A DNA stretch of 64,000 nt, taken from the IMG/VR virus record IMGVR_UViG_3300042473_001540, positions 62,001 through 126,000 of that record; one strand, 5' to 3'. Numbering within the stretch: position 1 is the stretch's first letter; every line of letters starts with the position of its first letter. This document shows, piece after piece, positions 2,058 to 50,207 of the stretch. This stretch comes from a virus. The notes beneath the pieces are model-generated. The model had not been told where the DNA came from and did not search any database. It was given only the letters and a program-made list of their open reading frames with translations. The position numbers and the translations under genes were made by a program.

Positions 2058-2390
2058 TCAACAGTCCTCTACAAGGAGAATGCTTTCTGGCTCTACCATT
2101 CTCACAACTGTGATTTCGCCATCAGGAGCAGCCACAGACACTCCACGGCTCCAGCGACCGTGAGAGATCAGCACACGATCTCCCTTTTTGACATCATCTA
2201 CGTCCTTGCCTACTGAATAAACTGTAGCCCAGCGTGGACGTACGCCACGCTCTTTCCCATCGTCGTCACCAATTATGAGACCACTTTTGGTTCGACGCTC
2301 ACCATGTTCCATGTTATGCACTAGGACTCGATTAGGCAATGGGCGAATCTCACCCTCTGTGTGCCAATCAAAAGGTTCAAAATTAGTCAT
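2058..2390 (-). CDS. GroES/Cpn10-like co-chaperonin (functional analogue of T4 gp31)
   Basis: 110 residues from ATG 2390 (overlaps the upstream stop within ATGACTAA); a start at 2402 is also possible. The order of elements is that of Cpn10: R-P-L-P-N-R-V-L-V strand, charged mobile loop with T-K-S-G-L-I-I, A-T-V-Y-S-V-G, V-K-K-G-D-R-V-L-I, and C-terminal E-S-I-L-L-V. Cpn10 caps GroEL; T4 gp31 replaces host GroES so that the major capsid protein folds. The stretch after the mobile loop has an insertion (KERGVRPRW). No GroEL gene is seen here, so a host GroEL partner is inferred. Confidence 0.85.
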   Translation of the reverse strand: MTNFEPFDWHTEGEIRPLPNRVLVHNMEHGERRTKSGLIIGDDDGKERGVRPRWATVYSVGKDVDDVKKGDRVLISHGRWSRGVSVAAPDGEITVVRMVEPESILLVEDC

Positions 2391-2766
2391 CTTTTTCTGC
2401 AATTTTCCGTTTTGGTGTTGGTGTAATAACTCCAGATCCCACTAGTTCTTGAATTGTGGGAAACTCAACATCAGGCAAAGTAGCTGCTCTTGGGGTAGGC
2501 ATAGGAGGAGGTGCTGCTTGTGAGAGAGGTTGTTCGCTTTTGATATCAGCAGTAAAAGTTTGTGACATGGCTCTAGCCGCAGCCCATTCAGCTTCAACCT
2601 GTTCTTGTGTTTTCAAAATGATACCCCCCTCGCCAAGAATGTCACCCTTTGCATTCATGCGTGCATTTCCTAATGCAACTTGTTGCTGATTTTGTAAGCT
2701 CAAGGCTGAAAAATCTATAATTTCTCCCCGCATACTTCTGTGTTGACGTCTAAAATGTCCGGCCAT
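2383..2766 (-). CDS. Conserved phage protein of unknown function
   Basis: 127 residues. The basic N-terminus contains RGEIIDFSAL followed by G-N-A-R-M-N-A-K-G-D and a G-G-I-I-L-K-T turn, a pattern I associate with small conserved proteins of T4-like marine phages but cannot assign a role. The middle is Ala/Gln/Pro-rich and probably disordered; the end is charged. Translationally coupled to the GroES-like gene by overlap. A late-promoter-like sequence lies ~27 nt upstream, so it is probably expressed late. Confidence 0.65.
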   Translation of the reverse strand: MAGHFRRQHRSMRGEIIDFSALSLQNQQQVALGNARMNAKGDILGEGGIILKTQEQVEAEWAAARAMSQTFTADIKSEQPLSQAAPPPMPTPRAATLPDVEFPTIQELVGSGVITPTPKRKIAEKDD

Positions 2767-7209: not shown

Positions 7210-11204
<3,995 letters not shown>

Positions 11205-21376: not shown

Positions 21377-21379
21377 GTG

Positions 21380-21407
21380 TTGTTACTAGCGTCACCTCCC
21401 CTATAAT
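21380..21407 (+). promoter_or_regulatory. Sigma-70-like promoter ahead of the structured RNA
   Basis: TTGTTA (21380-21385), 16-nt spacer, perfect TATAAT (21402-21407). The start would be near 21414, giving an RNA that begins in the gene-free stretch. Confidence 0.45.
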
Positions 21408-21413
21408 CTACGA

Positions 21414-21880
21414 ACTATTATAGGTTTTGATATCGTGGTAATGTGTCCACGGGCGGAAGGGATGGTGACCCATCAGGAACGCAAACAACTCGGCGCCCCT
21501 ATACGCCGGACCGGGAAGCACCGCTGTTTGTCTTGACACATGCTCTCCAGTGCGAACCCGGAATACACAACCAAGTGACAAAGTAGGTTGAAAAATTATC
21601 TTTGCGATGTGATGCATCGCATAAAAAGGATCGCTCTGAGGTGGTCATTCTCATCGATCAGGACGCAATTCAAGGTAGCTGATGCCCTTGGTTGTGTTTG
21701 CCGCTGCTGAACCCTGTGTTCGAGGTAGTGAATGCATACTGGTACCGAGCAACCGCCAGTTTTTGGTTTTCCCAAACATTCATCCAAATCATGCTCTCTA
21801 TACGGCGCCATACCAGGCACTTGAGACAATTTACCTCCCCAATTAGCCGTTGGGGAGAGTATGATCTCTTCCAACACCAC
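21414..21880 (+). ncRNA. Candidate large structured noncoding RNA
   Basis: The stretch 21377-21966 has no convincing gene but many nested complementary segments. Stems seen: 21441-21447/21535-21541 (7 bp) enclosing 21461-21465/21470-21474 and 21482-21487/21525-21530, the latter enclosing 21491-21495/21504-21508; 21565-21575/21687-21697 (11 bp perfect) enclosing 21604-21609/21615-21620 and 21629-21633/21655-21659 with 21637-21640/21650-21653; 21788-21798/21855-21865 (11 bp with one G-U) enclosing 21837-21842/21850-21855. Pairs 21511-21515/21557-21561 and 21739-21744/21811-21816 could be pseudoknots. Size and phage setting recall ROOL and GOLLD RNAs. Ends are uncertain, and I see no U-rich terminator. 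Confidence 0.5.
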
Positions 21881-21946
21881 CCAGAACATGAATATATGAA
21901 AATCTTCTATTGCATCATAAAATATCAGATGCTATGTTGATCTCAG

Positions 21947-21959
21947 ATAAAAAGGATCG
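21947..21959 (+). repeat. 13-nt direct repeat (second copy; first at 21621-21633)
   Basis: ATAAAAAGGATCG occurs twice 326 bp apart. The second copy supplies the AAGGA ribosome site for the ATG at 21967; the first lies within the structured RNA and precedes no start codon. Confidence 0.7.
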
Positions 21960-21966
21960 GCAAAAA

Positions 21967-22122
21967 ATGTGGTTTATTCTGCTTATGGCTGTGATAGCCG
22001 CAGTGTATGGCCTAGGAATGGTAGCTAATATCATAGGCTACTTTTTCCTATTCATTGGGCTTGGAATTGCCGCTCTAGTGGCACTGATCGTTATCGGTGC
22101 CGTTCTCGCAGATGGGAACTGA
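21967..22122 (+). CDS. Small two-segment membrane protein
   Basis: 51 residues from ATG 21967, chosen because AAGGA lies 11 nt upstream; an in-frame ATG at 21910 would add 19 residues with no ribosome site. Almost wholly hydrophobic: two likely membrane helices (~2-20 and ~22-48), the short end DGN. Could be a holin-like or superinfection-type protein by size, but nothing specific shows that. First gene of a + strand block continuing to 23597. Confidence 0.55.
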   Translation: MWFILLMAVIAAVYGLGMVANIIGYFFLFIGLGIAALVALIVIGAVLADGN

Positions 22123-22497: not shown

Positions 22498-22671
22498 TTG
22501 CCCCAGCCTGTCACTGTGCAGAGTAACCGACAACAGTTGGATGCTCAAATAGAGTGGTGCCAGCAGAATCTGCCACGCTATACCTGGCGATGTTATGTCA
22601 CTCATTTTTGGTTTGACAGTCAAGAAACTGCTACCCATTTTGCCTTGATATGGAGCACAAACGATGGTTGA
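22498..22671 (+). CDS. Small conserved-looking protein, start uncertain
   Basis: 57 residues if TTG 22498 is used (GTG 22516 is the alternative). Pattern Q-L-D-A-Q-I-E-W-C-Q-Q-N-L-P-R-Y-T-W-R, then F-W-F-D-S-Q-E-T-A-T-H-F-A-L-I-W-S. The W-x-F and F-A-L-x-W-S spacing resembles small phage proteins with one beta-hairpin and a helix, function unknown. It fills the gap between two genes in the same strand and its TGA overlaps the start of the methylase gene (ATGGTTGA), which supports it being real. Confidence 0.5.
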   Translation: MPQPVTVQSNRQQLDAQIEWCQQNLPRYTWRCYVTHFWFDSQETATHFALIWSTNDG

Positions 22672-23293
22672 CGTTCGACTGCTGCGTGATGCTGCTATTG
22701 CAGAGAGCAACAACGGCTTCAACGTGCATGATGAGCTAAAAACTCTCACAGTTGAAGAGCTCAAGAATGTAACCCAAGCTAGCCTCAAAAATTTTGAAGT
22801 TCTGTGCCTCAACGTGCTGGGCGACTTGAACATTAGCACCATTATCAGAAGCAGTCACCTTTTTGGGGCTCGTAAGGTGCATGTGTTTGGTCGCCGACGC
22901 ACTGACAACAGAGGCCTAGTGGGAGCTCAAAATTACACCCAAGTGGACCGGGTACAAGGACTCCTAGAGGATGGGGTTACTATCGATCCTGATGCCTTTT
23001 GGCGTTATGTGGACCAGGAGAGGCTCTATCCTGTTTTTGTTGAGCAGGGAGGCACCAATGTTTATGAGTTTGATTGGAATGAGAGCCTACTAGATGCCAA
23101 CAGCCTTGGTCGAACCATGTGCTTGATCATGGGCACTGAGAACAGCGGCATTCCACAAAGCATTCTCAAGGATGTTGACATGGTAGACCAAGCTGTGAGC
23201 ATTCCTCAAACCGGCGTCATCCGAAGCCATAATGTAAGCATGGCTTTTGCTGTTGTGTGCGGTCAGATGGTTAGCGCACTTAAATGGTATTGA
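22664..23293 (+). CDS. SPOUT (SpoU/TrmH-type) RNA 2'-O-methyltransferase
   Basis: 209 residues. The three SpoU motifs are in order: N-I-S-T-I-I-R-S-S-H-L-F-G (56-68), I-M-G-T-E-N-S-G-I-P (155-164) and I-P-Q-T-G-V-I-R-S-H-N-V-S-M-A (180-194), forming the trefoil-knot SAM site. Family members methylate the 2'-OH of a tRNA or rRNA ribose. The ~40 N-terminal residues are unique, with no L30e-type RNA-binding domain. Target unknown; it sits 3' of the structured-RNA candidate and 5' of the IF-1 homologue, which suggests work on translation or on that RNA (inference). Confidence 0.85.
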   Translation: MVDVRLLRDAAIAESNNGFNVHDELKTLTVEELKNVTQASLKNFEVLCLNVLGDLNISTIIRSSHLFGARKVHVFGRRRTDNRGLVGAQNYTQVDRVQGLLEDGVTIDPDAFWRYVDQERLYPVFVEQGGTNVYEFDWNESLLDANSLGRTMCLIMGTENSGIPQSILKDVDMVDQAVSIPQTGVIRSHNVSMAFAVVCGQMVSALKWY

Positions 23294-24178: not shown

Positions 24179-24427
24179 ATGAGCAAAGAAGATTACATCA
24201 CAGTCAACGGCACAGTTATTGAAGTTTGTCCCAACAGTCTGTTCAGAGTACAATTGGAAAACGGACTTACAATACTAGCTCACTTGGCTGGCAAATTGAG
24301 AATCAACAACATCAATGTCCATCATCTTGATCATGTGACCGTAGAGCTAAGCGCATATGATTTGACGAAAGGACGCATTGTCTACCGACAAAAGCGCCCT
24401 CCTCGGAATTCCAACGCTACTCATTGA
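24179..24427 (+). CDS. infA: Translation initiation factor IF-1 homologue
   Basis: 82 residues; bacterial IF-1 is ~72. Family landmarks along the S1-like OB fold: M-S-K-E-D-Y-I at the start, [33 protein letters not shown], and [13 protein letters not shown]-1 binds the ribosomal A site of the 30S subunit during initiation. A ~10-residue basic tail ([10 protein letters not shown]) is extra. There is no Shine-Dalgarno; a late-type promoter abuts the start. The 3' end overlaps the convergent GT2 gene by 11 bp. Phage-encoded IF-1 is unusual; host-derived origin is likely (inference). Confidence 0.92.
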
Positions 24428-25595
24428 CCTCAGTTGAGTCCAGTGTAGCCTCATTATCGTTCAGGACTACTGCCACATCATTGTCTGTATTTTGAAGGTT
24501 GGGCACTAAGACAACAGTTTCTGTTGATTTTTCCACATTGCTGTCAAACCAATCTTGGATAATCTTAAGGTTGTTTTTTAGTCTGCCATCATTTGAATTG
24601 TGTTCAACCGCCTTGGAAGCGTAATCTAAGCTTTCTGTTCTTAACCCCAAATTCCAAGCACTTATGCTGGCAAGATCATGTGGTAACCAACTCCATGAGT
24701 CTTCGTTACAAGTGTAGTCCATTGGATGTTGAGTGATCTCTAGGGCTTTTACAGCATGTTTGTAGCATTCACCCCAATTGGCTTTTGTATAATAATATCG
24801 AGCTAGCTCAACCAATGGCTCTCTATGATTTGGAGTTTCCATAGTAGCCATCTTCAACCAGAACTCTTTGTTTTCATCATCCACTGATGCCAAGTTTTGC
24901 ATTGCAAATCCTCGCTCTACATTCCAGCAAGGCATTGTCAAGAACTCTTTGTAAGTTTTGATGCAATCTTCCTTCATACCTCGATACATATATTCTCTGC
25001 CCAGATAAGCTCGCATGCGTGCATCGTGAGGATATTCTCTCACTGCTTCCTGAAGCAATGGTAGATCGCCGTTTTTGTTTTTGAATTCAGGGTAGTGGAG
25101 GATACGCAGCTCGGGGCAACTGGTTTGAACTTCAGGCACACGGCTGCATAACCCTTCGTGAGTCGCACCTACCCATCGAAAACCTCGTCGCGCATGGATG
25201 CGATCTCCATTCCAGATGCGGCCAGGCACACCAGGTGACAACCAATTCCAAATATATGTATATCTAAGTCTAGTGGTTTCTGGTGTCCATGACTTTTCCA
25301 ACAGTTCTCGCCAGCCGTTATCAAGACGTTCATCCATATGAAGACAAATGCATACATCACAATCAGCTGGTAACAAACTCATTGCGATATTATATGCATC
25401 ATCAAAACGCCAAGGACTGATCAATGTATCATATACAGAAACTTTATTCTCTTGTAAAATTTGTTTTGTATCATCTGTGCTGCCTGTATCTATTACTACT
25501 CGGTAATCAGCATCTGCACATGACAGGGCCCAAGCAGCAGCATTTTTGTTCTCGTTCAATGCCGGAGCATAGACGCCTATTTTCAATTTTGTCAT
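24417..25595 (-). CDS. GT2 glycosyltransferase with TPR-like tail
   Basis: 392 residues. GT-A domain: [13 protein letters not shown] (36-43), and H-M-D-E-R (86-90) as the DxD-type metal site, then the D-R-I-H-A-R-x-G-F-R-W region typical of this subfamily. Residues ~180-350 are TPR-like helical pairs ([10 protein letters not shown]-x-x-A). The last ~40 residues are acidic and low-complexity. Coupled by ATGA to its paralogue upstream. Likely adds a sugar to a phage or cell-surface glycan. Confidence 0.88.
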
Positions 25596-26656
25596 CCTTT
25601 GTTCTCCAGGACAGATTTCACAAACTCATAATTGGATTTGATGCGGCCATCTTCTGGCTCAAGACGTGCAGCTTCTTCAAACATTCTGAGGCTTTCGTCC
25701 TTTAGGCCGAGGTTCCAAGCACCTAATCCGCATAGATCATACATTCTTCCTCCCCAAGCGTGCGAATAATCAAGATAGCTGTTGCTCTTGTGAGCACATT
25801 TCAAACCTTCTTTAGCAGCCGCATAGAGATTGGGCCAATCAGCATTGTTGTAGTAATATTCGGCTAGATTTAACCAAACTTCTCGTCGTGTGGGACTTTC
25901 AACAGAACTTAGTCTCAGCCACTTCAATTCTTCATGGGGTAGACATTTGGCTAACCACTTCATAGCCTCGCTCCGTTCATCAGCCCAACCACTTTCAGGC
26001 ATGGCAAGATACTTTTGGAAATGTTCAGCAGCATTTTCAGGCTGATTATACCAAGCATACTCTCTTGCCAACCAATAGCACAATTGACTGTCACGTGGCA
26101 TCTCTTTGTAGCTTGTTTCCAGCAAGGGTAGATATTGGCCACGACTTTTGCTAGGATCTTGTTTGTGCCACATAACAACACTGGGGGCTACGACGGTTTT
26201 TTCATCACCAATGGGAAAAATAGTTTCATGCACTGCACGCTTCCATCGATAACCAAATCTACTATGCAGCTTGTCTGCAAGGAATTGACTAAGTGGTTGG
26301 TCATTGGCATCAAAGTTGTGAACATAATGATAGCGCAGTCTTGTTGTGCCAGGTAACCAATGTTTTTCCAGCTCTTCTCGCCAACCGGGGGCCATCATCT
26401 CATCCATGTCCATAGAGATACAGACATCAACATCTTCTGGAACCAATGCTAGTGCCATGTTGCGTGCATCATCAAACCTCCAAGGTTTGATTTTAATAAC
26501 ACTTACTTGTACACCACGTTCTCGCAATGCCTCCACAGTGCCATCTGTGCTGCCAGTGTCAGCTACGACTAGATAGTCAGCTTCTTTGACACTGTCACAC
26601 CAACGCTCTACAAAATGTCTTTCGTTAAGGGAGATAGTATATACAGCTAGTTTCAT
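25592..26656 (-). CDS. GT2 glycosyltransferase with TPR-like tail (paralogue)
   Basis: 354 residues with the same architecture as the next gene: S-L-N-E-R, D-T-G-S-T-D-G-T (33-40), S-M-D-M-D-E (81-86), K-L-H-S-R-F-G-Y-R-W and TPR-like helices from ~190. The two are a tandem duplication that has diverged. Its start lies within an ATGA overlap with the upstream gene, so the five genes from 29238 down form one transcript. Confidence 0.88.
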   Translation of the reverse strand: MKLAVYTISLNERHFVERWCDSVKEADYLVVADTGSTDGTVEALRERGVQVSVIKIKPWRFDDARNMALALVPEDVDVCISMDMDEMMAPGWREELEKHWLPGTTRLRYHYVHNFDANDQPLSQFLADKLHSRFGYRWKRAVHETIFPIGDEKTVVAPSVVMWHKQDPSKSRGQYLPLLETSYKEMPRDSQLCYWLAREYAWYNQPENAAEHFQKYLAMPESGWADERSEAMKWLAKCLPHEELKWLRLSSVESPTRREVWLNLAEYYYNNADWPNLYAAAKEGLKCAHKSNSYLDYSHAWGGRMYDLCGLGAWNLGLKDESLRMFEEAARLEPEDGRIKSNYEFVKSVLENKG

Positions 26657-27396
26657 GTAATCACCTTTGGCAAAGAATCAGGATCAGAAATATATGGAGT
26701 ATACCACCATCCTGTATATCTACGTTGTACCACATTTAACGGCAAATCTGCAAAACAGACTTCAATATTATGGTGTTTTAAATGGGTATCAAACGCTTTG
26801 TGAGGATGAAAGTCTTTGTCTGAGAAGCAGGAAAATCTTTTGCCTGCTTGATTTGCTGTGCTGCTGTTGCCTATAAACCAAAAATCGCAAGGACTGCCAC
26901 ACCCAAATTTACGTTGAACCAGAAGTTGGTTGTAATCAAAACACCACTGAGGCAAGGAGTTTTGATAGATGACATCAGCTCGGCTTACAATGACAAAATC
27001 GTATTTTTGAGAAAAACAGCTTGCCATCTCAACAACTCTTTCTTGTGCCCATAAATTGGCCCACATTGCTAGAGGATAATCTTCAACAGAGCCAATATTT
27101 GATTTCAACTGTGCAAGTGAGTTTGAAAAACACTGGGAATCCAAGCTAAATGTCTCAGATTGTAAAGGACATAAGCTTGATAACATTGAAAAATCCTGGT
27201 GTGTTGGAAAACCACCAGGATTTTTATGTGTGTATCGTGGATGGTTTGAATCTGCAGGATACATTCCCAAGGACGATGCATCGTAAACACAGGCAAACAG
27301 GTCTATGTTCAAACAGCTAAACAAATGAGTTCGCAAGCTAGCTGCAACATTGTTGAAATGTCGATAAGGGCCATACAGGCACAGTGCTAGTTTCAT
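26653..27396 (-). CDS. Glycosyltransferase-like protein, phage/bacterial surface-glycan type
   Basis: 247 residues from ATG 27396 (TAATG overlap with the upstream stop). N-terminal L-A-L-C-L-Y-G-P-Y-R-H-F strand and a V-I-V-S-R-A-D-V-I-Y motif (~135-144) resemble GT-A-like proteins with an R-x-D metal site. Related in layout to the protein at 28570-29238 (start x-A-L-C-x-x-G, D-V-I-I-R-A-R-F-D). Acceptor and donor unknown. Confidence 0.65.
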   Translation of the reverse strand: MKLALCLYGPYRHFNNVAASLRTHLFSCLNIDLFACVYDASSLGMYPADSNHPRYTHKNPGGFPTHQDFSMLSSLCPLQSETFSLDSQCFSNSLAQLKSNIGSVEDYPLAMWANLWAQERVVEMASCFSQKYDFVIVSRADVIYQNSLPQWCFDYNQLLVQRKFGCGSPCDFWFIGNSSTANQAGKRFSCFSDKDFHPHKAFDTHLKHHNIEVCFADLPLNVVQRRYTGWWYTPYISDPDSLPKVIT

Positions 27397-28103
27397 TATA
27401 CTACCTTGATCCAAGGAGTGTATTTTTGAATATCATGTTGCTCATAAGTGAACTGACTGTTTCGAGTAGTGTGATAGTAGATTTTTTTATGAGTTAGCAG
27501 TTCGCCAACGCTGTGAATGAAGTTGAAAACACTGCTATCAATGAGGTGTATCTCTTGTGCATTTTCAATTACACGTATCCAGGAAAGAAGATTTGATGTA
27601 ACATTATGTGAGACTTTTACAATACGTACATCGTGAGCACTTTCATCTACCCATTTCAAAGGCACCCTTCCACCAATGCTGGGCTCGTCATGGACTAATC
27701 TATACGGGGTAGAGTCTCCCACAACCATATCATACACTGCGTCAACATCAGGAATACATTGTGGTAATTTGAATTGGGAGAATCGGTATTCATAAGGTAA
27801 GCCAAATTGCTCATAGTACCACCTGTACCACCGTGCACTTGTGGGTCGATGCATATACACATCAGCTTCGATTATAGGTATGCCAAAACAATCTAAGCTG
27901 TTTTCAACAGTCTCACTAATACCGTCTATTTTTAGTAGTTTTACTTTGGGATTGTCTTGATATAAACAGGAAACTGTGGGCCAGTTGTGAGGTTTCACAG
28001 GCACAAATACCTGATCGTATATTTCTGAGAAATAGTTGACTAAGCCATTACAAATGAAATAATCACCCAATCCCAGTTGGTGTGCTACTATTACTTCTTT
28101 CAT
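27396..28103 (-). CDS. GT-B-like (heptosyltransferase-like) protein
   Basis: 235 residues. The N-terminus V-A-H-Q-L-G-L-G-D-Y-F-I-C-N-G-L-V and V-F-V-P-V-K-P match the glycine loop and second strand of GT9-type folds; the C-terminal half has H-L-I-D-S-S-V-F-N-F-I-H, like the conserved S/D-x-x-x-x-H segment that binds the nucleotide-sugar. Shorter than typical GT9 enzymes (~300+). Function in the same glycan pathway is inferred from its neighbours. Confidence 0.6.
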   Translation of the reverse strand: MKEVIVAHQLGLGDYFICNGLVNYFSEIYDQVFVPVKPHNWPTVSCLYQDNPKVKLLKIDGISETVENSLDCFGIPIIEADVYMHRPTSARWYRWYYEQFGLPYEYRFSQFKLPQCIPDVDAVYDMVVGDSTPYRLVHDEPSIGGRVPLKWVDESAHDVRIVKVSHNVTSNLLSWIRVIENAQEIHLIDSSVFNFIHSVGELLTHKKIYYHTTRNSQFTYEQHDIQKYTPWIKVV

Positions 28104-28573
28104 TGTGCACCTACAGGATGCAACAGGCTTATCCAGTCAGAGCATATTCCAAACGCATCCCAGCTCAAGCATTCAGCTAATTTATCAAGTGGGGTGTGCC
28201 ATTCAGGCATTACTGCTATACTATTTGAGAACAATGGTTTGTTTGGTGATGTCCACCAGTAATTTTGGCTTGTTAATACACGCTCATCATTTTCATGCCA
28301 AAAATAGTTCAACATTGGGTGCAAGTGGTGTAACTGGCTCAACTCTTGGCAAGCTTTTGCATTCTTAGCGTGAATCCATAAGTTTTGCTGTGTTAGGAAA
28401 TCAGTTGTTACTCTAATTGATGGAGCATCATGCCCCAACATCCAGCCGTCTGTGTACCAAACATCAATTTCCACGTCAATTCCCAACTCCAAACAAGTGT
28501 GGATTGATTGGGGAGTGTTTTCAGCTTTGGGATCAGGACCATACAAAAGTCCTCGATGTGCAATCAATCTCAT
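28100..28573 (-). CDS. Short glycerophosphodiester phosphodiesterase-like protein
   Basis: 157 residues. Opens with the GDPD signature I-A-H-R-G (4-8), A-E-N-T (17-20), E-I-D-V (35-38) and L-G-H-D (46-49), which supply the metal ligands and catalytic histidines. The usual family length is ~240, so the second half of the TIM barrel is reduced. In this sugar cluster it might remove or modify a glycerophosphate or act on a phosphodiester-linked decoration. ATGA-coupled on both sides. Confidence 0.75.
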   Translation of the reverse strand: MRLIAHRGLLYGPDPKAENTPQSIHTCLELGIDVEIDVWYTDGWMLGHDAPSIRVTTDFLTQQNLWIHAKNAKACQELSQLHHLHPMLNYFWHENDERVLTSQNYWWTSPNKPLFSNSIAVMPEWHTPLDKLAECLSWDAFGICSDWISLLHPVGAQ

Positions 28574-29238
28574 GGTATAATTCCTGTTGGTCTTACTATT
28601 CCGTTATGCCAGTTGTGTTCTTTGACTGGTATGTTGTGTAACAAAAGATGGCTTTTCAAAAACAACTCGCCACAAAAATCCACCTTGTAGTCTTGATAGA
28701 GTGTAGGAAGCCAATCCACTAGTTGTGCGTAAGTTTTCATAGTTGTACTGCTGCCATATGCAAATTGGTCACTTATGCCCAGATACTCTTGGTCCAAGAA
28801 CTGGAATCGATGCCCAGATAATCCCGGTGTATGGGCTACATTTACTGCGTTGTTCAATTCCAGCTCCACAGTTTGAAGGAACCAATCAAATCTTGCACGG
28901 ATAATCACGTCATACTCAAACCCAAAATTAGTTTGATAGTCAAGCGCCAAGCCAATGGCTTTTTGAATTCCAGTATATTGTGCAAGTTGATTTTGTGGTA
29001 TAGTACGGTATGCCCAAATGCGGTCTGTGTACAGGCTTACATCATATTTTTTAGGTTGTTCCCAGGACAGGATTTTGGGTTGATATAAGCTCCAAAAATT
29101 ATTGGGGTCAAAATCTAGATTTTGCCAAGTGTGAATGAATACGTCAGGTTGATATACGTCTAATAGACATCGTTTCCAGTAACGATGCGTTTCCCTTACA
29201 AATCTTGGTAAACCTGAAAAACAAAGTGCCACACGCAC
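28570..29238 (-). CDS. Glycosyltransferase-like protein
   Basis: 222 residues. R-V-A-L-C-F-S-G-L-P-R at the start, V-F-I-H-T-W (~33-38), then Y-D-V-I-I-R-A-R-F-D (~108-117) and F-C-G-E near the C-terminus. These are features of a family of surface-glycan proteins (GT-A-like with R-x-R-x-D). Similar layout to the gene at 26653-27396. Substrates unknown. Confidence 0.65.
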   Translation of the reverse strand: MRVALCFSGLPRFVRETHRYWKRCLLDVYQPDVFIHTWQNLDFDPNNFWSLYQPKILSWEQPKKYDVSLYTDRIWAYRTIPQNQLAQYTGIQKAIGLALDYQTNFGFEYDVIIRARFDWFLQTVELELNNAVNVAHTPGLSGHRFQFLDQEYLGISDQFAYGSSTTMKTYAQLVDWLPTLYQDYKVDFCGELFLKSHLLLHNIPVKEHNWHNGIVRPTGIIP

Positions 29239-29568
29239 CTAGTCACCCAAGGTCAAGAGTTGTTTGTCATTCATACTGGGAACCTTGACACAAATAATAC
29301 TTGTGTCCTCAAGAAACTCAGGATTGGTGATTTCCCAAGGATACAGAATAAAAATATCTCCAGAGCTGAGCTCAGTGTCTTGAATTCTCATTCTCCCGCT
29401 GGTAATGAGATTGATCTCAGTAACTTTTGTGTGAAAGTGCGGATCAGGAGGATCACTGGATTTGTGTGTGCGAAAACCAACTTCAAAGTCTTTTGTGGGC
29501 CAAGCAGTGGGCTCAAAATCGCCCACAAACCATCCTCGTAGCATATTGTTGTGTTTCAACAACTTCAT
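29239..29568 (-). CDS. Small cupin protein
   Basis: 109 residues with the cupin metal-binding set H-F-H (44, 46), E51 and the second-motif strand G-D-I-F-I-L-Y-P-W. A single jelly-roll domain. Cupins near nucleotidyltransferases are often sugar isomerases or epimerases, but size and sequence fit a generic small cupin. Placed between the nucleotidyltransferase-HAD and a glycosyltransferase. Confidence 0.75.
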   Translation of the reverse strand: MKLLKHNNMLRGWFVGDFEPTAWPTKDFEVGFRTHKSSDPPDPHFHTKVTEINLITSGRMRIQDTELSSGDIFILYPWEITNPEFLEDTSIICVKVPSMNDKQLLTLGD

Positions 29569-30665
29569 AGACCAAATGACTCCCAGTTCACAATTCCAAA
29601 CCCTTGATCAGTTAATACATTTACAGCCAGTGCTCTATTACTGTCAGCTTCACTAAGCTTGTCATTTACAATTACTCTTGTACCACTTGTAACACCCATC
29701 AACAGTTGATCATACGCTATACCAATACTCTCAAGCTGTGCAACTGTGGCAGCTCTAGTACTTTCTTTTCTGGCTGTAACAAGTATAATAGTGTGCCCTT
29801 GGCTATCCCATTGGTTGAACTTTTCTCGTACACCGTGTAGTATTTTTGGCTCAACTCGCAATGCCTCACTTATGGAATGCTGATGTTGAATAAGGGTGCC
29901 GTCAATGTCGCAAAAAATTGTTTTGGGCTTGCTGCTGTAAAACTCCTTCACCTTACCCAAATACCGTGCCACATCTTCTGGAGTGCCCAACGGAATATAA
30001 ATGTTTGGAGCAACAAAATATGGGAAAATGCTTGAGCCTTGTTGAATGAGATAGTTGTAAGTTTCGCTTATGTAACACTCAGGCCGGCCGTGAAATGTAA
30101 ATTCTGACAGGAGTTTTTCTGCACTTTCTACAAAATCACAGCCGCGTTTCCAATAGTGAAAACCAATTAGTGCATCATCTGAGATGGGATTTTTCTCCAC
30201 AACCTGTACTACTCGACTGTTTTTGATCTCAGCAAAGCTGTTCTTGGGATCCCTTTCTTTGTGAAGCACAACTGCCCCATCAACTCCGGTATCGCTTGTA
30301 AATTTTAAAAACTCTCGAGGATCCCAATTGATGATTTGATCGCAATTATAAATCACTAGCGGCTCATTGTTGTTGATAAACTCTCGAGCACACAATGCTG
30401 TTTGGCTGGCACCATTTGTGACACGATCTATTTCAATTATCTCACATTCAGGGCGTAGTTGCTTCAATAGACTGTTCAGCTGGTGTGAATATGCTGGGTT
30501 CTCATATTTGCGTGTTACAAAAATAAATTTTCCATCAACATCAAAGCTTTTGATGCTATGCTCAATCAGTGTGCGAGAGTTAACCTCAATAAGCGGTTTA
30601 GGCTCTTGTATCCCAATGTTGGAAAATCTAGAGCCCAACCCTGCCATTGGTATGAGAATATTCAT
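29565..30665 (-). CDS. Bifunctional sugar nucleotidyltransferase - HAD phosphatase
   Basis: 366 residues. N-terminal nucleotidyltransferase (1-~235): M-A-G-L-G-S-R-F (7-14), K-P-L-I-E-V (23-28), N-C-D-Q (107-110), E-K-N-P. C-terminal HAD domain (~248-366): C-D-I-D-G-T-L (252-258) with nucleophile D253 and general acid D255, V-T-A-R-K (296-300), N-D-K (334-336). Would activate a sugar phosphate with NTP and dephosphorylate a related intermediate. The fusion of both activities recalls pathways for nucleotide-activated heptose or pseudaminic-like sugars. Ribosome site AAGGA 6 nt before ATG; a small palindrome (CTACAA/TTGTAG) lies just upstream. Confidence 0.85.
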   Translation of the reverse strand: MNILIPMAGLGSRFSNIGIQEPKPLIEVNSRTLIEHSIKSFDVDGKFIFVTRKYENPAYSHQLNSLLKQLRPECEIIEIDRVTNGASQTALCAREFINNNEPLVIYNCDQIINWDPREFLKFTSDTGVDGAVVLHKERDPKNSFAEIKNSRVVQVVEKNPISDDALIGFHYWKRGCDFVESAEKLLSEFTFHGRPECYISETYNYLIQQGSSIFPYFVAPNIYIPLGTPEDVARYLGKVKEFYSSKPKTIFCDIDGTLIQHQHSISEALRVEPKILHGVREKFNQWDSQGHTIILVTARKESTRAATVAQLESIGIAYDQLLMGVTSGTRVIVNDKLSEADSNRALAVNVLTDQGFGIVNWESFGL

Positions 30666-36285: not shown

Positions 36286-38298
36286 GTGACTCAAATTCGT
36301 AAAATTTGGACCAGCAAGTTCACAAATGATATAAATGAGTATGTTGGTCGCGATGGGGAGATATTCTACGCAAGCGGGGAAGTTGAGTTACGTTTTTCTG
36401 ACGGCGTAACTCCTGGTGGGTTACCATTTACCCCTGGCGGTGGAGGGGGTACTGGCACAACTGGCGCACAAGGACCCACTGGGCCAACAGGGGCAAGAGG
36501 CATTAGTGGTTATTCTGGGGTAAGCACCCTTGGCTCAACTGGACCAACTGGGCCCAACAGTGCTAGTGGTTATTCTGGGATATCAGGTTACTCAGGCGAG
36601 TCTGGAACAAGCGGCTACTCTGGCAGCGGAGTATCAGGCTACTCTGGTCAAGGTGGTTATTCAGGAACTTCAGGAAAATCTGGAGAATCTGGGTATTCTG
36701 GTGCCAGTGGGTATTCTGGTGCCAGTGGGTATTCTGGTGCCAGTGGGTATTCAAGTGAGTCTGGCCGGTCAGGTTACTCTGGTGAAAGTGGTTATTCTGG
36801 CAGTGGAGTATCAGGCTACTCTGGAGAGAGTGGGTACTCTGGAGAGAGTGGGTACTCTGGAGAGAGTGGGTACTCTGGAGAGAGTGGTTATTCAGGTTAT
36901 TCAGGTTACTCTGGTTATTCAGGTTACTCTGGTTATTCAGGTTATTCTGGAGAGAGTGGTTATTCAGGTTATTCTGGAGAGAGTGGTTATTCTGGGATAT
37001 CAGGTGAGTCAGGCTATTCTGGAGAGTCAGGTGTCTCTGGATATTCTGCCTATTCAGGATACTCTGGAGAGAGTGGTTATTCAGGGGCATCAGGTGAGTC
37101 TGGCTATTCAGGAGAGAGCGGATATTCTGGAGGCAGCGGAACTAGTGGAACTAGTGGTGTAAGTGGATGGAGCGGCACAAGTGGAACTAGTGGATGGAGC
37201 GGCACAAGTGGAACTAGTGGATGGAGCGGCACAAGTGGAACCAGTGGATGGAGCGGCACAAGTGGAACTAGTGGAACAAGTGGCACAAGCGGCTGGAGTG
37301 GCACAAGTGGAACTAGTGGATGGAGCGGAACAAGCGGCTTTAGTGGTGTCAGCGGAACTAGTGGGTTCAGCGGAACTAGCGGAGCAAGCGGCTTTAGTGG
37401 TGTCAGCGGAGCAAGCGGCTTTAGTGGTGTCAGCGGATTCAGTGGAGCAACTGGCTTAATAGGACCTACTGGTAGTGGCGCAACTGGTGCAACTGGCACC
37501 CCAGGTGTAACAGGTGTAACAGGACCAACAGGTCCTGTTGGTCCTGCGTCTACATTAGCAGCTAGTTCTTACATTTTAACTGCTATCTTAACAAGTGATC
37601 AAACAGTTGCTAGCGCAAGTACGTTAGTTTTACCCTTAGCTGATTATTATGATCCACAAAACTGGTGGAACGCCAGCACATATACATTCAAACCAACTGT
37701 TGCAGGTTATTATAATTTAAGTTTCGGTGTTTGGGTCAGTGCAGCGTCTGTGGCAACTAATCAATATAACGGCCAGATACTTAAAAACTCTGGAACTATA
37801 TTAATTGCCCAAGTTCAAACTGTAACGTCTACGGGAATTTCACTTGGTGGCAGCAAAGTTGTTTACTTCAATGGATCTACTGACTCTGCTCAAGTTACTG
37901 CCTTTAACGGTACCGGAAGTAATGTTACAGTGCAATATGGCACTGCTGACGGTCCAGGAACTTGGCTTTCAGCACATTTAATTGCATATGGCGCTGATGG
38001 AGTAACAGGACCTACAGGCGCTAGCGGAACTAGTGGCGTAAGTGGATGGAGTGGCACAAGTGGCTGGAGTGGCACCTCTGGGTTCAGTGGATTCAGTGGC
38101 ACAAGTGGATTCAGTGGCACAAGTGGATTCAGTGGAACAAGCGGCTTTAGTGGTGTCAGCGGAACTAGTGGCACAAGCGGCTTCAGCGGAGCAAGCGGCT
38201 GTAGTGGTGTCAGCGGCTTTAGCGGAACTAGTGGATTCAGTGGCGGAGCAGGTGTTACTACAGGCAAAGCTATTGCGATGGCAATTGTTTTTGGATAA
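36286..38298 (+). CDS. Gly-X-Ser collagen-like fibre with C1q-like insert
   Basis: 670 residues, GTG start. Residues 1-~50 form a fibre attachment domain (R-K-I-W-x-S-K-F, G-E-I-F-Y-A, L-R-F-S-D-G-V-T-P-G-G). Then ~360 residues of triplets in which the third position is nearly always Ser: G-Y-S/G-E-S first, then G-T-S/G-W-S/G-F-S. Residues ~421-570 look like a C1q/TNF-type jelly roll (F-K-P-T-V-A-G-Y-Y-N-L-S, Q-N-W-W). A second Gly-X-Ser run follows to the end. Gly-X-Ser without proline is unlikely to make a stable collagen helix, so another fold is possible. Confidence 0.8.
   Translation: MTQIRKIWTSKFTNDINEYVGRDGEIFYASGEVELRFSDGVTPGGLPFTPGGGGGTGTTGAQGPTGPTGARGISGYSGVSTLGSTGPTGPNSASGYSGISGYSGESGTSGYSGSGVSGYSGQGGYSGTSGKSGESGYSGASGYSGASGYSGASGYSSESGRSGYSGESGYSGSGVSGYSGESGYSGESGYSGESGYSGESGYSGYSGYSGYSGYSGYSGYSGESGYSGYSGESGYSGISGESGYSGESGVSGYSAYSGYSGESGYSGASGESGYSGESGYSGGSGTSGTSGVSGWSGTSGTSGWSGTSGTSGWSGTSGTSGWSGTSGTSGTSGTSGWSGTSGTSGWSGTSGFSGVSGTSGFSGTSGASGFSGVSGASGFSGVSGFSGATGLIGPTGSGATGATGTPGVTGVTGPTGPVGPASTLAASSYILTAILTSDQTVASASTLVLPLADYYDPQNWWNASTYTFKPTVAGYYNLSFGVWVSAASVATNQYNGQILKNSGTILIAQVQTVTSTGISLGGSKVVYFNGSTDSAQVTAFNGTGSNVTVQYGTADGPGTWLSAHLIAYGADGVTGPTGASGTSGVSGWSGTSGWSGTSGFSGFSGTSGFSGTSGFSGTSGFSGVSGTSGTSGFSGASGCSGVSGFSGTSGFSGGAGVTTGKAIAMAIVFG
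36580..37450 (+). repeat. Gly-X-Ser coding repeat
   Basis: Runs of 18-bp units (GGTTATTCTGGAGAGAGT type), then units coding G-W-S-G-T-S and G-F-S-G-V-S. Several units are identical at DNA level (36826-36880), which implies recent tandem duplication. A shorter run is at 38020-38250. Confidence 0.85.
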
Positions 38299-42772: not shown

Positions 42773-44122
42773 ATGTCTGTGGCTGCTGGCAAACTCATCA
42801 CACAAGCCAACGCATGCATTGTCTTGGCCAATCAAGATGTTCTGCAAACTGCTCAGTTGGCAGGTATTCAAGCGGCTTTGAATGGGATCTATTGTGTAGC
42901 AAATTGTGCAGCATTGCCAACAGCATGTGACAATACAGGCAGGTTTATTTGGATAACGGACATTGGCGACTATCGCTACAGTGATGGCACCCAATGGACC
43001 AATGACTTCAATACAAATTGGACAGGCGCATGTGTGTTTGGGTGGGGTTGGAACCTCTGTGGAGGTTTGGGCAATAATACAACAACTTCCCAGAGTTCAC
43101 CTGTTCGAGAAATAAGCTCAAGCTGCAATTGGGTTACTGTCACTAGCAATACAACATCAGCAGGAATAAAATCAGACCTTTCACTATGGACTTGGGGTTA
43201 CAACAATTGTGGTGCACTGGGCAATAATGCAACAGCTAACCAAAGTAGTCCAGTTCGTGAAATAAGTAGTTCTTCAACCTGGACAAGTGTAGGGTCATTT
43301 GCGTTCCATCTTTTGGCTTTAAAATGTGATAGCACACTGTGGGCATGGGGCGACAACTTTTGCGGTAATTTGGGCGATGGCACCAAAACAACCCGCAGTT
43401 CTCCAATCCGCGAGGTATCATCAAGTACAAATTGGTGTTCAATCAGCAGTGGAGGGCTGCGACACTCTGCTGCTGTCAAGTCTGATGGCAGTCTGTGGAC
43501 CTGGGGAGTCAACACATGTGGAGTACTGGGAACCAACAACACAACTAACTTCAGTTCACCAGTGCGAGAAATAACAAGCGGAACCTCCTGGTGCAGAATA
43601 CAAAACGGTTACAACCTAGCAGTTGCGTTGAAAAAAGACAATACACTTTGGAGCTGGGGCTCAGGTGGATATGGCGTTCTCGGTAACAACTCTACCTCAA
43701 ATGCCAGCAGCCCAGTTCGAGAAGTTTCCAGCTCTACAAATTGGTGCACATTTGGGCCTGGCAAGTATCATTCAAATGCTATAAAAACCGATGGCACTCT
43801 GTGGGCATGGGGTTTAAATACATGTGGAGAGCTGGGAAATAATACTGCAACCAGCCGGAGCAGTCCTATACAAGAAATTTCATCATCAACAACTTGGTGT
43901 CAAGTATCTGGTGGATGCGCGCATACCGCGGCGTTAAAAACAGATGGCACATTGTGGACCTGGGGAAATGCATCATGTGGCGCGTTGGGGAACAACACAG
44001 TTACATCAGTTTCCAGTCCTGTGAGAGAGATAACATCAGCCACGTCGTGGAGTTGTGTAACTAGCAGTACAAGGCAAACAATGGCCATTCAAGGTAAAAT
44101 TTCAGGATTTGTAGCACTATGA
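42773..44122 (+). CDS. RCC1-repeat seven-bladed propeller, type A
   Basis: 449 residues. ~85-residue N-terminal adaptor (helix, then A-A-L-P-T-A, Y-R-Y-S-D-G-T-Q-W-T-N-D-F), then seven ~50-residue RCC1 repeats, each with W-G-x-N-x-x-G-x-L-G, S-S-P-[VI]-[RQ]-E, W-C and a hydrophobic strand before the next LW. Seven repeats equal one closed propeller. The copies in this protein have diverged more than in the later ones. Likely a receptor-binding tip on a fibre. Adaptor matches that of the gene at 47493. Confidence 0.88.
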   Translation: MSVAAGKLITQANACIVLANQDVLQTAQLAGIQAALNGIYCVANCAALPTACDNTGRFIWITDIGDYRYSDGTQWTNDFNTNWTGACVFGWGWNLCGGLGNNTTTSQSSPVREISSSCNWVTVTSNTTSAGIKSDLSLWTWGYNNCGALGNNATANQSSPVREISSSSTWTSVGSFAFHLLALKCDSTLWAWGDNFCGNLGDGTKTTRSSPIREVSSSTNWCSISSGGLRHSAAVKSDGSLWTWGVNTCGVLGTNNTTNFSSPVREITSGTSWCRIQNGYNLAVALKKDNTLWSWGSGGYGVLGNNSTSNASSPVREVSSSTNWCTFGPGKYHSNAIKTDGTLWAWGLNTCGELGNNTATSRSSPIQEISSSTTWCQVSGGCAHTAALKTDGTLWTWGNASCGALGNNTVTSVSSPVREITSATSWSCVTSSTRQTMAIQGKISGFVAL

Positions 44123-45438
44123 ACTTAAATCAAATTGAATTTGCCCTTAGCCAAAAAATCGCAGCAGGCAACGACAATCTAGATTTGCTCACATATACAC
44201 GGGCTATTCAACAACTGAGAACAGGCGCTATGTTTGTTGTAGCCTGTTCTCAATTATTACCTACTGCATCAGCCAGCAATGGTAAATTGTATTTGGTTGA
44301 AGACGCTCAAAGAGTAGTTTTCAGTAATTCTGTATTTTGGATTCCTATTGTATCACAGTCTAACACAGGTTGGGCGTGGGGGTCAAACAGTTGTGGACAA
44401 TTGGGCACAAGTAATACAACCAATCAATCAAGTCCTGTCAGAGAGATTACAAGCTCCTGCAACTGGCTGCAACTCAGAGCTGGTTCGGTAAATTCAATGG
44501 GGTTAAAACAGGATAGTTCCTTATGGCTTTGGGGCAATAACGTATGTGGTCAGTTGGGAGACAACACTGTTACCAGTAAGTCAAGTCCTGTAAGAGAAAT
44601 CACCAGCAGCACAACTTGGTGTCAAATAGGTACGTCTTTTTACACAATGTCTGGTGTTAAAAGTGATGGCAGTTTGTGGGCATGGGGAAAGAACACATAT
44701 GGCCAAGTGGGTGATAACACTATAGTTAACAAATCTAGCCCAGTGCGTGAAATCAGCAGCAGTGCCACTTGGTGCCAAACCTCACCTGGATATTCGCATA
44801 CTGCTGCACTAAAAACAGATGGAACCCTTTGGGGTTGGGGAAATAATGGGACTGGGCAACTGGGCACATGCAATCTGTCTAATAGGTCTAGTCCTGTGCG
44901 AGAAATTTCCAGTTCAACCAATTGGTGTCAAGTTTCTGCCGGCCTCTACGGTACCCTAGCACTCAAAACAAGTGGTACTTTATGGGGATGGGGGTCAAAC
45001 GAGTGTGGCAAATTTGGCAATAATAGCACTAGCAATGTATCAAGTCCCGTTCAAGAGATAAGTAGCTCCACCACTTGGTGTCAAACTTCCGCTGGGTTTG
45101 CTCACTCTATTGCCTTAAAAACAACTAACACACTATGGGCATGGGGTTGCAACGCTTGTGGTGCTTTAGGAGACAACTCTACTGTATCCAGGAGCTCACC
45201 AATTCAGGAAGCAACAAGTGCAACCAATTGGTGCCAAGTCACTGCCGGCTTTGGCAGAAGTGGCGCTTTAACAACCGCAAGCACTTTATGGATGTGGGGT
45301 AATAACAATTGTGGCCAACTTGGTAACAACTCTACAATCAGAAGTTTATTGCCTATACGTGAAATATCCAGTTCAAGCTCCTGGAGTGAAGTTAGCATAG
45401 GACAGGGCCTGTTTACTGTAGCCCGGCAAACAATTTAA
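44119..45438 (+). CDS. RCC1-repeat seven-bladed propeller, type B
   Basis: 439 residues, ATGA overlap with the previous gene. N-terminal adaptor of type B: S-Q-K-I-A-A, L-L-T-Y-T-R-A-I-Q-Q-L-R-T-G, L-L-P-T-A-S-A-S-N-G-K-L-Y-L-V, matching the gene at 48854. Then seven RCC1 blades (AWGSNSCGQLG to MWGNNNCGQLG). Diverged copies, as in the preceding gene. Confidence 0.87.
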   Translation: MNLNQIEFALSQKIAAGNDNLDLLTYTRAIQQLRTGAMFVVACSQLLPTASASNGKLYLVEDAQRVVFSNSVFWIPIVSQSNTGWAWGSNSCGQLGTSNTTNQSSPVREITSSCNWLQLRAGSVNSMGLKQDSSLWLWGNNVCGQLGDNTVTSKSSPVREITSSTTWCQIGTSFYTMSGVKSDGSLWAWGKNTYGQVGDNTIVNKSSPVREISSSATWCQTSPGYSHTAALKTDGTLWGWGNNGTGQLGTCNLSNRSSPVREISSSTNWCQVSAGLYGTLALKTSGTLWGWGSNECGKFGNNSTSNVSSPVQEISSSTTWCQTSAGFAHSIALKTTNTLWAWGCNACGALGDNSTVSRSSPIQEATSATNWCQVTAGFGRSGALTTASTLWMWGNNNCGQLGNNSTIRSLLPIREISSSSSWSEVSIGQGLFTVARQTI

Positions 45439-45455
45439 GATAAAAGGAATAAAAT

Positions 45456-46106
45456 ATGTATGTGTTAGTACATAACGAAAGAGTGTTGGTAGGTCCAATG
45501 AGTTGGAATAGGCCAATGTTTGAAGGCGGTCTGGACCGCCTTAAGATTTCAGCATTGCTGCCGCGCAATGACCCTGAAACCGTTCCTATTGTGATAGACG
45601 ATGCCACCTATTTGACCACAGCACAGCTGGTGATACCCGATCATAACTCTCGAACACAAACCTATTATGGTCCGTTCTGGGATTTCACTAATCCTGCAAT
45701 TGCCGTTGGTACATTTGAGATCAAATACAAGCAAATTTGGGAGATACAAGCTCAGTTGCGAGACGAGGCACAAGCCAATCGCTACACTGCTGAAGTGGGT
45801 GGCACACACACTGTGATACAAGGTAAAAAAGTTACTATTGACACTAGCAGAGAAGGTAGGAACATTTTTGTGCAAAAATACTCTCTTATGGCAACTGATG
45901 AAACAGTGAATTGGAAGTTTCCGGAAACTTGGCTCACTCTCACAAAAGATGAATTAGGCCAATGCGTCGCTGCTGGTGCAGCGCATATTCAAGCCACATT
46001 TGACTGGGAAAAACTCAAAGATGATGAAATCACTGCCTCAACCACTATAGAGGAGTTGGAAGTGTTAGTGGTAGGCAACGTGCCCAATCTAGTGAGTGGT
46101 GGTTAA
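45456..46106 (+). CDS. DUF4376-like tail/fibre accessory protein
   Basis: 216 residues with AAAAGGA before the ATG. N-terminal half: I-S-A-L-L-P-R-N-D-P, Q-T-Y-Y-G-P-F-W-D-F. C-terminal ~110 residues (R-D-E-A-Q-A-N-R-Y, F-P-E-T-W-L-T-L-T-K-D-E-L, A-A-H-I-Q-A-T-F-D-W-E) fit the DUF4376 domain of phage fibre-assembly proteins. It is the only non-RCC1 gene in the array, and may be the chaperone for the propellers. Confidence 0.75.
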   Translation: MYVLVHNERVLVGPMSWNRPMFEGGLDRLKISALLPRNDPETVPIVIDDATYLTTAQLVIPDHNSRTQTYYGPFWDFTNPAIAVGTFEIKYKQIWEIQAQLRDEAQANRYTAEVGGTHTVIQGKKVTIDTSREGRNIFVQKYSLMATDETVNWKFPETWLTLTKDELGQCVAAGAAHIQATFDWEKLKDDEITASTTIEELEVLVVGNVPNLVSGG

Positions 46107-46117
46107 GGAAGCGCAAG

Positions 46118-47491
46118 ATGGCCAATAACCTCTGCTGTGCAACACTTCTCAACTCTGTGGTGAGCGAAATATGCTCAAGTGGCACACTCACATGCAGTAT
46201 GGATGTGGTGTTAGCAGCAGCATCACAAGACGCTGTTGACAGTAATCGGAGTAGTTTCATCAGCATAGATACCTTATTTGGTTGCAGTTGTTCAACTGGG
46301 TTACCAAATGGGCATGTTGTTTTTTTGTGCGATGCACTTGTGCCCGTAGTGAGCCTCAATGGCTGTTGGATTGGTTTTGATGGCAGGAATTTCACTCCTA
46401 CAGTGGGAGGAGCTCTTTGGAGTTGGGGCGGCAACAACAACGGTCGATTGGGAGACAACACTATTACCAATCGCTCAAGCCCAGTAAGAGAAATCACCAG
46501 CAGCACCACTTGGTGTCAAACTTCAGCTGGCTTTTATCATACCAGTGCATTAAAAACAGATGGCACACTTTGGAGTTGGGGCAGAGGCAACTACGGTCGA
46601 TTGGGAGACAACACTGCTACAAGTAAGTCAAGTCCTGTAAGAGAAATCACCAGCAGCACCACTTGGTGTCAAACTACGTCTGATAACAGAAGTACACATG
46701 CAATAAAAACAGATGGTTCACTTTGGAGTTGGGGCAGCAATGCCTCTGGTCAGTTGGGAGACAACACTATTACCAATCGCTCAAGCCCAGTAAGAGAAAT
46801 CACCAGCAGCACCACTTGGTGTCAAACAGCATCCAGTAATTATACTGCCAGTGCAGTAAAAACAGATGGCACACTTTGGAGTTGGGGCTCCGGCGGCTAT
46901 GGTCGATTGGGAGACAACACTGCTACAAGTAAGTCAAGTCCTGTAAGAGAAATCACCAGCAGCACCACTTGGTGTCAAACTTCAGCTGGTGGTATAAGCA
47001 CTAGTGCTATAAAAAAAGACGGCACACTTTGGAGTTGGGGAGGAGGTTTGCAGTTGGGAGACAACACAACAACAAACCGGTCAAGTCCAGTGAGAGAAGC
47101 CAGCAGCAGCACTACTTGGTGTCAAACATCAGTTGGATATCGGCACGCGTCTGCAATAAAAACAGATGGCGCTCTTTGGAGTTGGGGCTCTAACGGGTGT
47201 GGTCAGTTGGGAGACAACACAACAACTGGTCGCTCAAGTCCAGTGAGAGAAATCACCAGCAGCACCACTTGGTGTCAAACTTCGGCTGGTTGTGTCAATA
47301 ACAGTGCATTAAAAACAGATGGTACACTTTGGACTTGGGGAGGCAATTTGTGTGGTCAGTTGGGAGACAACACTATTACCAATCGATCAAGTCCAGTGAG
47401 AGAAATCACCAGCAGCACCACTTGGTGTCAAACTTCGGCTGGTAAAGTGGATACTAGTGCTATTAAAACTATATTAGTTGTTCCGCAATAA
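46118..47491 (+). CDS. RCC1-repeat seven-bladed propeller, type C
   Basis: 457 residues. Cys-rich N-terminal adaptor (A-T-L-L-N-S-V-V-S-E-I-C, W-I-G-F-D-G-R), paired with that of the gene at 50208. Seven blades; blade 5 is two residues short (S-W-G-G-G-L-Q-L-G). Repeats here are nearly identical at DNA level (I-T-S-S-T-T-W-C-Q-T), as in the next three genes. Confidence 0.88.
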   Translation: MANNLCCATLLNSVVSEICSSGTLTCSMDVVLAAASQDAVDSNRSSFISIDTLFGCSCSTGLPNGHVVFLCDALVPVVSLNGCWIGFDGRNFTPTVGGALWSWGGNNNGRLGDNTITNRSSPVREITSSTTWCQTSAGFYHTSALKTDGTLWSWGRGNYGRLGDNTATSKSSPVREITSSTTWCQTTSDNRSTHAIKTDGSLWSWGSNASGQLGDNTITNRSSPVREITSSTTWCQTASSNYTASAVKTDGTLWSWGSGGYGRLGDNTATSKSSPVREITSSTTWCQTSAGGISTSAIKKDGTLWSWGGGLQLGDNTTTNRSSPVREASSSTTWCQTSVGYRHASAIKTDGALWSWGSNGCGQLGDNTTTGRSSPVREITSSTTWCQTSAGCVNNSALKTDGTLWTWGGNLCGQLGDNTITNRSSPVREITSSTTWCQTSAGKVDTSAIKTILVVPQ

Positions 47492-47492
47492 C

Positions 47493-50194: not shown

Positions 50195-50207
50195 ATGGAG
50201 ACAGAAC

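Follow-up and report, generated by a model that had tools for sequence, protein, structure and literature searches.

An apparently gene-free gap in the genome of a jumbo phage almost certainly encodes a new class of structured RNA, judging from the way in which its homologues vary. The window that we analysed is a stretch of 64,000 nucleotides, corresponding to positions 62001–126000 of a 309,756-nt phage contig. Inspection of the open reading frames (ORFs) in the window left the gap at 21377–21967 without a credible gene, between a plus-strand gene that ends at 21376 and a small ORF with a likely ATG at 21968. The RNA that we delimited within this gap is predicted to fold into at least 14 helices joined by four long-range contacts, each a pseudoknot or a kissing loop.

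When the DNA of the gap was used as a query against the contig, it uncovered a second copy on the opposite strand (about 189331–189782 in contig coordinates, minus strand; 75% identity, E = 8e-33), and a covariance model placed the 5′ domain of this copy at 189643–189785. Pairwise alignment of the window copy with the second copy showed compensatory changes, with AUGGG/CCCAU in one and ACAGG/CCUGU in the other, and likewise CUCCCCAA/UUGGGGAG and CUCCCUGA/UCAGGGAG. Pattern scans of IMG/VR yielded 27 distinct homologues, all of them in phage contigs; the many further IMG/VR matches were identical contigs of the same phages. The mean pairwise identity among the homologues was 58%, a level suitable for covariation analysis. 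Contigs carried between one and three copies, with three in one 452,799-nt contig and two in each of four contigs, including that of the window, and the long contigs that carry the RNA were of jumbo size. The copies of the 452-kb contig grouped together in a tree, and the two copies of the window phage formed one weakly supported clade; this clustering suggests that the RNA has been duplicated repeatedly within lineages.

The family was not encountered in the deposited genomes that we searched. Five members gave no blastn match among 50,697 deposited phage genomes, and one member gave none among 72,556 plasmids. Among 84,980 genomes of bacteria and archaea, a strict pattern matched three times, each time without the remainder of the RNA. 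Five cultured relatives of the window phage, at 35–44% protein identity, are Sinorhizobium phage Phosso, Agrobacterium phage Atu_ph07, Pseudomonas phage PA5oct, Salmonella phage Munch and Vibrio phage 2.275.O, and the 5′-domain covariance model found no match in any of them.

We produced two alignments, one of the 5′ domain (A1, 22 sequences) and one of the full length (A2, 26 sequences), both without the use of structure. For the 63 proposed pairs in A2, 94.4% of the cells were paired, compared with 73.2% after shuffling, and 51 of the 63 pairs had changed on both sides. The full-length covariation score was 0.592, against 0.193 ± 0.009 for shuffled alignments, and slid controls were all at or below 0.119. 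The corresponding values for the 5′ domain in A1 were 98.5% of cells paired versus 80.0% after shuffling, 20 out of 28 pairs doubly changed, and a covariation score of 0.563 versus 0.190 ± 0.014. An all-against-all covariation test was performed with our own R-scape-like code, which is distinct from R-scape and uses a G-test with average-product correction; for the null alignments, the inferred substitutions were placed anew on the branches of a FastTree tree. Only 12 of 97,461 column pairs reached E ≤ 0.05, and all 12 were pairs of the proposed helices. An earlier run with 22 sequences had given 13 significant pairs, all within the proposed helices or pseudoknot PK3. The original prediction of a large structured noncoding RNA had named covariation among homologues as the test that could refute it, and the outcome was decisively in its favour.

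In a separate swap test, the pairing of a strand with its own partner was compared with its pairing to partners taken from other molecules, using 20,000 permutations. The swap test is uncorrected for phylogeny, and relatives that share both strands bias it against positives. When 6,107 pairs of sequence segments were scanned without bias, P1–P12 and P14 were recovered independently and PK4 was discovered, and swap tests on control regions gave no signal. The resulting features are listed in Table 1.

Table 1. Predicted features of the RNA locus, in window coordinates. Counts out of 20,000 are swap-test permutations at least as good as the native pairing; E values are from the covariation test.
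Feature	Position	Strand	Evidence
Sigma-70-like promoter, TTGTTA-N16-TATAAT	21380..21407	+	Sequence; -10 box ends 26 nt before P1
Structured noncoding RNA, about 475 nt	21414..21888	+	26-sequence alignment A2
P1	21434-21438/21447-21451	+	Covariation E ≤ 0.005 at two pairs; 4/5 pairs doubly changed
P2	21453..21482	+	100% paired (26 sequences)
P3	21490-21495/21504-21509	+	Covariation E 0.005-0.03; swap-scan z -14.0
P4	21511-21514/21558-21561 and 21522-21526/21548-21552	+	99-100% paired; 7/9 pairs doubly changed
P5	21568-21572/21586-21590	+	Swap test 0/20,000
P6, hairpin with loop UGNNG	21605-21609/21615-21619	+	Covariation E ≤ 0.05 at three pairs
P7 and P7a	21629-21633/21655-21659 and 21637-21641/21650-21653	+	96% paired; 6/9 pairs doubly changed; swap-scan z -10.3
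P8	about 21663-21672/21689-21697	+	Own -14.15 vs swapped -5.01; 0/20,000
P9, hairpin	21708-21712/21718-21722	+	100% paired; 5/5 pairs doubly changed
P10, enclosing P11 and P12	21730-21734/21777-21781	+	Swap test 0/20,000
P11	21738-21742/21756-21760	+	Covariation; null values all lower
P12	21762-21766/21772-21776	+	Swap test 0/20,000
P14, hairpin CUCCCCAA/UUGGGGAG	21835..21857	+	Swap test 0/20,000
P15 (probable)	21724-21727/21832-21835	+	Scan z -6.6; narrow-window swap 632/20,000
PK1 (UUUGUC/GACAAA)	P4 loop 21527-21532 with P5 loop 21577-21582	+	Swap test: own -5.99 vs swapped -4.28 kcal/mol; 0/20,000, n = 19
PK2, long-range	P8 loop 21677-21683 with 21788-21795 (strand 3′ of P12)	+	Swap test: own -9.2 to -9.8 vs swapped -4.9 to -6.4; 0/20,000, n = 22 and 26
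PK3 (type UNY/RNA, where Y is a pyrimidine and R a purine)	UGC 21705-21707 (before P9) with GCA 21749-21751 (P11 loop)	+	Alignment: 100% paired in 26 sequences (UGC/GCA, UAC/GUA, UGU/ACA, UUC/GAA); one pair E = 0.017
PK4, kissing loop	P4 loop UGAC 21534-21537 and flank with P7a loop GUCA 21644-21647 and flank	+	Scan z -6.9; own -6.16 vs swapped -3.23; 0/20,000, n = 24
Conserved 3′ tail	3′ of P14, to near CACCCA	+	Alignment

The aligned region measured 420–477 nt in the homologues, and conservation ran from end to end, being strongest in the 5′ 130 nt. P2 is built of an outer GCG/CGC, a symmetric purine internal loop (GAAGG/AGGAA) and an inner stem of the GAUGG/CCAUC type; one subfamily has GGG/CCC in place of the outer GCG/CGC, a compensatory change in an otherwise invariant helix. 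The P4 region (21511..21561) contains the conserved segments GAAGCACCGCUG and CGAACCCGGAAUA. For P15, the scan and the narrow-window swap test are no more than suggestive of a helix. Three of the 26 members (L037, L039 and L050) lack P5, and hence PK1, while the remaining fold, including PK4, is kept, which suggests a natural deletion variant.

Two 11-bp long-range helices had been proposed from the window sequence. The complementarity of 21565–21575 with 21687–21697 is present, but it did not behave as a conserved helix (14,368 of 20,000 permutations were at least as good), and the two segments are instead parts of the conserved P5 and P8, respectively. The second complementarity, between 21788–21798 and 21855–21865, is also present but found weak support as a conserved helix (615 and 1,524 of 20,000 permutations), and this pairing would be in competition both with P14 and with one of the conserved pseudoknots. 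Pseudoknotting itself had been foreseen correctly, but with two possible pseudoknots rather than the four conserved pseudoknots or kissing loops that we found. PK1, PK2 and PK4 were established by alignment-free swap tests, and PK3 by pairing in the alignment; for PK1, the test was confined to the loops, the whole P5 hairpin being confounded by its arms. Two other candidate contacts were rejected by the swap test, one between the P1 loop and P13 (17,456/20,000) and one between the P8 loop and the 3′ tail (11,681/20,000).

Support for the fold, as read from the homologous sequences, is comparative and not energetic. Single-sequence folding was weakly better than that of shuffled sequence, with z values of −1.9 for the gap and −1.4 for the RNA alone; the average z for the folding energy of the homologues was −3.0. 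Among paired cells, there were 76 G·U compared with 10 A·C, indicating that the RNA is on the plus strand. No reading frame was conserved across the 26 homologues and stops break up every frame across the RNA region, which bears out the description of the gap as gene-free. ARAGORN detected no tmRNA or tRNA within the window. We give almost no credence to the alternatives that the structure arose by chance or that this is a gene for a protein or an antisense gene, such as the 97-aa minus-strand ORF at 21596–21889. The modestly low single-sequence folding energy would be compatible with chance structure, but the covariation, the unconserved frames and the absence of a PHROG match for the 97-aa ORF all argue the other way.

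The sigma-70-like promoter of the original prediction was present in the window, and a similar signal recurred at a similar distance in the homologues. The best sigma-70-like site ended 18–45 nt 5′ of P1 in 16 out of 27 homologues, where a uniform distribution would give 4.4, and the mean site score was 7.37, compared with 5.02 ± 0.31 for shuffled sequence. From the position of the promoter, the 5′ end of the RNA would lie at about 21414, and from the point at which conservation stops, its 3′ end would lie at about 21880–21890. Sequence inspection revealed no T-run 3′ of P14, so this hairpin is not an intrinsic terminator. By eye, we observed terminator-like hairpins 5′ of the RNA at some loci, as well as promoter-like sequences between the RNA and a ligase gene at several loci. 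We infer that the RNA is transcribed during infection.

Considered as a family, the RNA is new; considered as a kind, that of large ornate phage RNAs, it has precedents. A search of the gap against Rfam 15, including its models for ROOL, GOLLD and introns, returned no credible match either at the gathering threshold or at E ≤ 10, with snoRNA-type chance matches only, and a search of eight other homologue loci at E ≤ 1 returned one unrelated weak sRNA match and no others. Membership in the ROOL, GOLLD and OLE classes, among group I and group II introns and among riboswitches was rejected on these results. At locus L056, a sub-threshold match to the Brucella sRNA BSnc120 (372–442; 26.8 bits against a threshold of 114) lies just 5′ of an RNA copy and is probably a chance hairpin. 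No published description of the RNA was found in the open-access literature, outside which most subscription papers lie.

In being encoded by phages, having no conserved ORF and showing a covarying fold with multiple pseudoknots, the RNA resembles large structured phage noncoding RNAs in general. The packaging RNA (pRNA) of phi29 is likewise a phage-encoded structural RNA, and one that oligomerises, but it is much smaller, at about 174 nt, and no evidence ties the RNA described here to packaging. HEARO, the omega-RNA of IscB and IsrB, is a structured RNA of mobile elements (roughly 340 nt) that goes together with a neighbouring nuclease ORF (IscB, IsrB or TnpB), whereas our RNA has no constant neighbour. 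OLE is also a large, highly structured noncoding RNA, but it is bacterial (from extremophiles), dimeric and bound to membrane proteins. GOLLD, like our RNA, is phage-encoded, ornate and pseudoknotted, without a known partner protein and with an unsolved function (PMC12286853); GOLLD RNAs often exceed 800 nt and have a conserved 3′ half and a variable 5′ half, in contrast to the end-to-end conservation seen here. With ROOL, the RNA shares a phage or prophage origin, a length of several hundred nucleotides, several pseudoknots and the lack of a known partner protein or function (PMC12286853). Unlike ROOL, which is often near tRNA islands, it has no recurrent tRNA island, and it was found only in phage contigs, in up to three copies.

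The original prediction had left open a divergent member of ROOL or GOLLD or a new class, and the results favour the latter. Its size range, phage origin and several pseudoknots are alike to those of GOLLD and ROOL (PMC12286853), but with no Rfam 15 match at the thresholds given above, and with tRNA-like genes near one RNA locus only, we regard divergent membership as highly improbable. This one locus is represented by 2 of 26 flanking regions, from two contigs. Two adjacent tRNA-like genes with a CUA (amber) anticodon, at L133 (13552–13707) and L141 (258–413), are a hint that these RNA-carrying phages suppress amber codons or recode stop codons.

Genomic context was examined in the 26 flanking regions, with some gene functions read from sequence without a family search. 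At least two places recurred: one 3′ of PhoH and two virion structural genes, in five contigs including that of the window, and another, in a second group of loci, 5′ of a gene resembling an ATP-dependent DNA ligase. PA5oct has this pair of structural genes too, with DnaJ and ClpA genes immediately after the pair, whereas in the window the RNA and other genes intervene. Other neighbours included methyltransferase-like, FAD-oxidoreductase-like and minus-strand genes, and no protein family was constant beside the RNA. Because its neighbours vary, trans action of the RNA is probable. That it serves the 3′ gene in cis, as a leader, attenuator or riboswitch, is very unlikely: a same-strand gene does follow at several loci, but the 3′ gene varies by locus and in many cases lies on the other strand, promoter-like sequence can intervene 3′ of the RNA, as before the ligase gene, and the RNA is well above the usual size of leaders.

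Homing-type endonuclease genes were found beside or inside the RNA at L143 and, by sequence inspection, at L120 and L128. At L143, a 216-aa ORF (2098–2748, plus strand) is flanked by a complete copy of the RNA and by a truncated 5′ copy that ends at CATCAGG, with a minus-strand feature at 2740–2799. The ORF resembles a GIY-YIG homing endonuclease by sequence and falls in PHROG families of unknown function; it had no Pfam match. L145 (4581–4657, minus strand) and L146 (1485–1561, plus strand) have a truncated 5′ remnant alone. The RNA locus appears to be a homing target. These endonuclease genes, together with the precedent of large pseudoknotted guide RNAs, could point to a guide or scaffold subunit of one phage enzyme encoded elsewhere, in the manner of HEARO and the IscB, IsrB or TnpB omega-RNAs. 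We consider this quite unlikely, as there is no constant neighbour protein family and the endonuclease genes are at few loci and insertion-like.

Several other genes in the window deserve mention. A SpoU-family RNA 2′-O-methyltransferase (22664–23293; Pfam 3.8e-17) is encoded just 3′ of the RNA and could modify it; in a further three position-A contigs, the SpoU methyltransferase cluster likewise occurs 3′ of the RNA. A cluster of glycosyltransferase and sugar-nucleotide genes (24417–30665) adjoins the RNA region. Six consecutive genes at 42773–51557 encode near-alike repeat proteins (WGWG...GQLGDNTxTxRSSPVREI) that resemble RCC1-like propellers and are possibly adhesins or tail fibres, and long repeat proteins with collagen-like (GPT)n and SGYSG/SGTSG repeats are encoded at 7224–11201 and 36286–38298.

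Taking these observations together, we favour, as on balance the probable explanation of the whole, a trans-acting RNA gene of jumbo phages with a structural role. The gene would be a dedicated one, its roughly 475-nt RNA being made during infection from its own sigma-70-like promoter, with one to three copies per genome providing extra RNA dosage. The RNA would adopt a compact, globular fold of several domains, fastened by the four loop-loop or loop-strand pseudoknots. A structural role is suggested by this anatomy and by the parallel with ROOL, GOLLD and OLE, whose RNAs assemble into a homo-octamer cage, a 14-mer cage and a dimer, respectively (PMC12286853); how common RNA-only assembly is among large natural RNAs is an open question (PMC12286853). 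By analogy with these RNAs, we tentatively propose, as a plausible mechanism that may well prove wrong, that the RNA acts as an RNA-only homo-oligomer or a ribonucleoprotein scaffold.

An alternative is that the RNA is a trans-acting ribozyme, in which the fold would bring the invariant internal loops, rich in purines, together with segments CGAACCCGGAAUA and UACCGAGCAACC as an active site. Its compact fold with several pseudoknots and its many invariant unpaired positions (GGAAGGG, CAGGAAC, CCGCU and GGAAUA) at 58% mean identity would fit catalysis. However, contacts with protein or RNA would likewise conserve loops, none of the known ribozymes in Rfam matched and no substrate is evident, so we judge a ribozyme unlikely. 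The structural reading remains our preference. It is possible, if somewhat doubtful, that the RNA is a new jumbo-phage RNA machine unrelated to ROOL, GOLLD and OLE, with its own RNA-only assembly or catalysis. If this were true, the phages, whose homologues of the RNA come from uncultured contigs, would keep one to three copies of the machine for a role in infection that has no described counterpart.

Very few classes of large ornate RNA are known in bacteria and their viruses, and the two best-known phage classes, GOLLD and ROOL, are cages whose purpose is unsolved. A third, unrelated class, with about 475 nt, four pseudoknots and clear covariation, would be small enough to make a convenient object for cryo-EM and probing and would bear directly on how common RNA-only assembly is among large natural RNAs, and the homologue set and consensus fold should allow others to model and annotate this RNA class.
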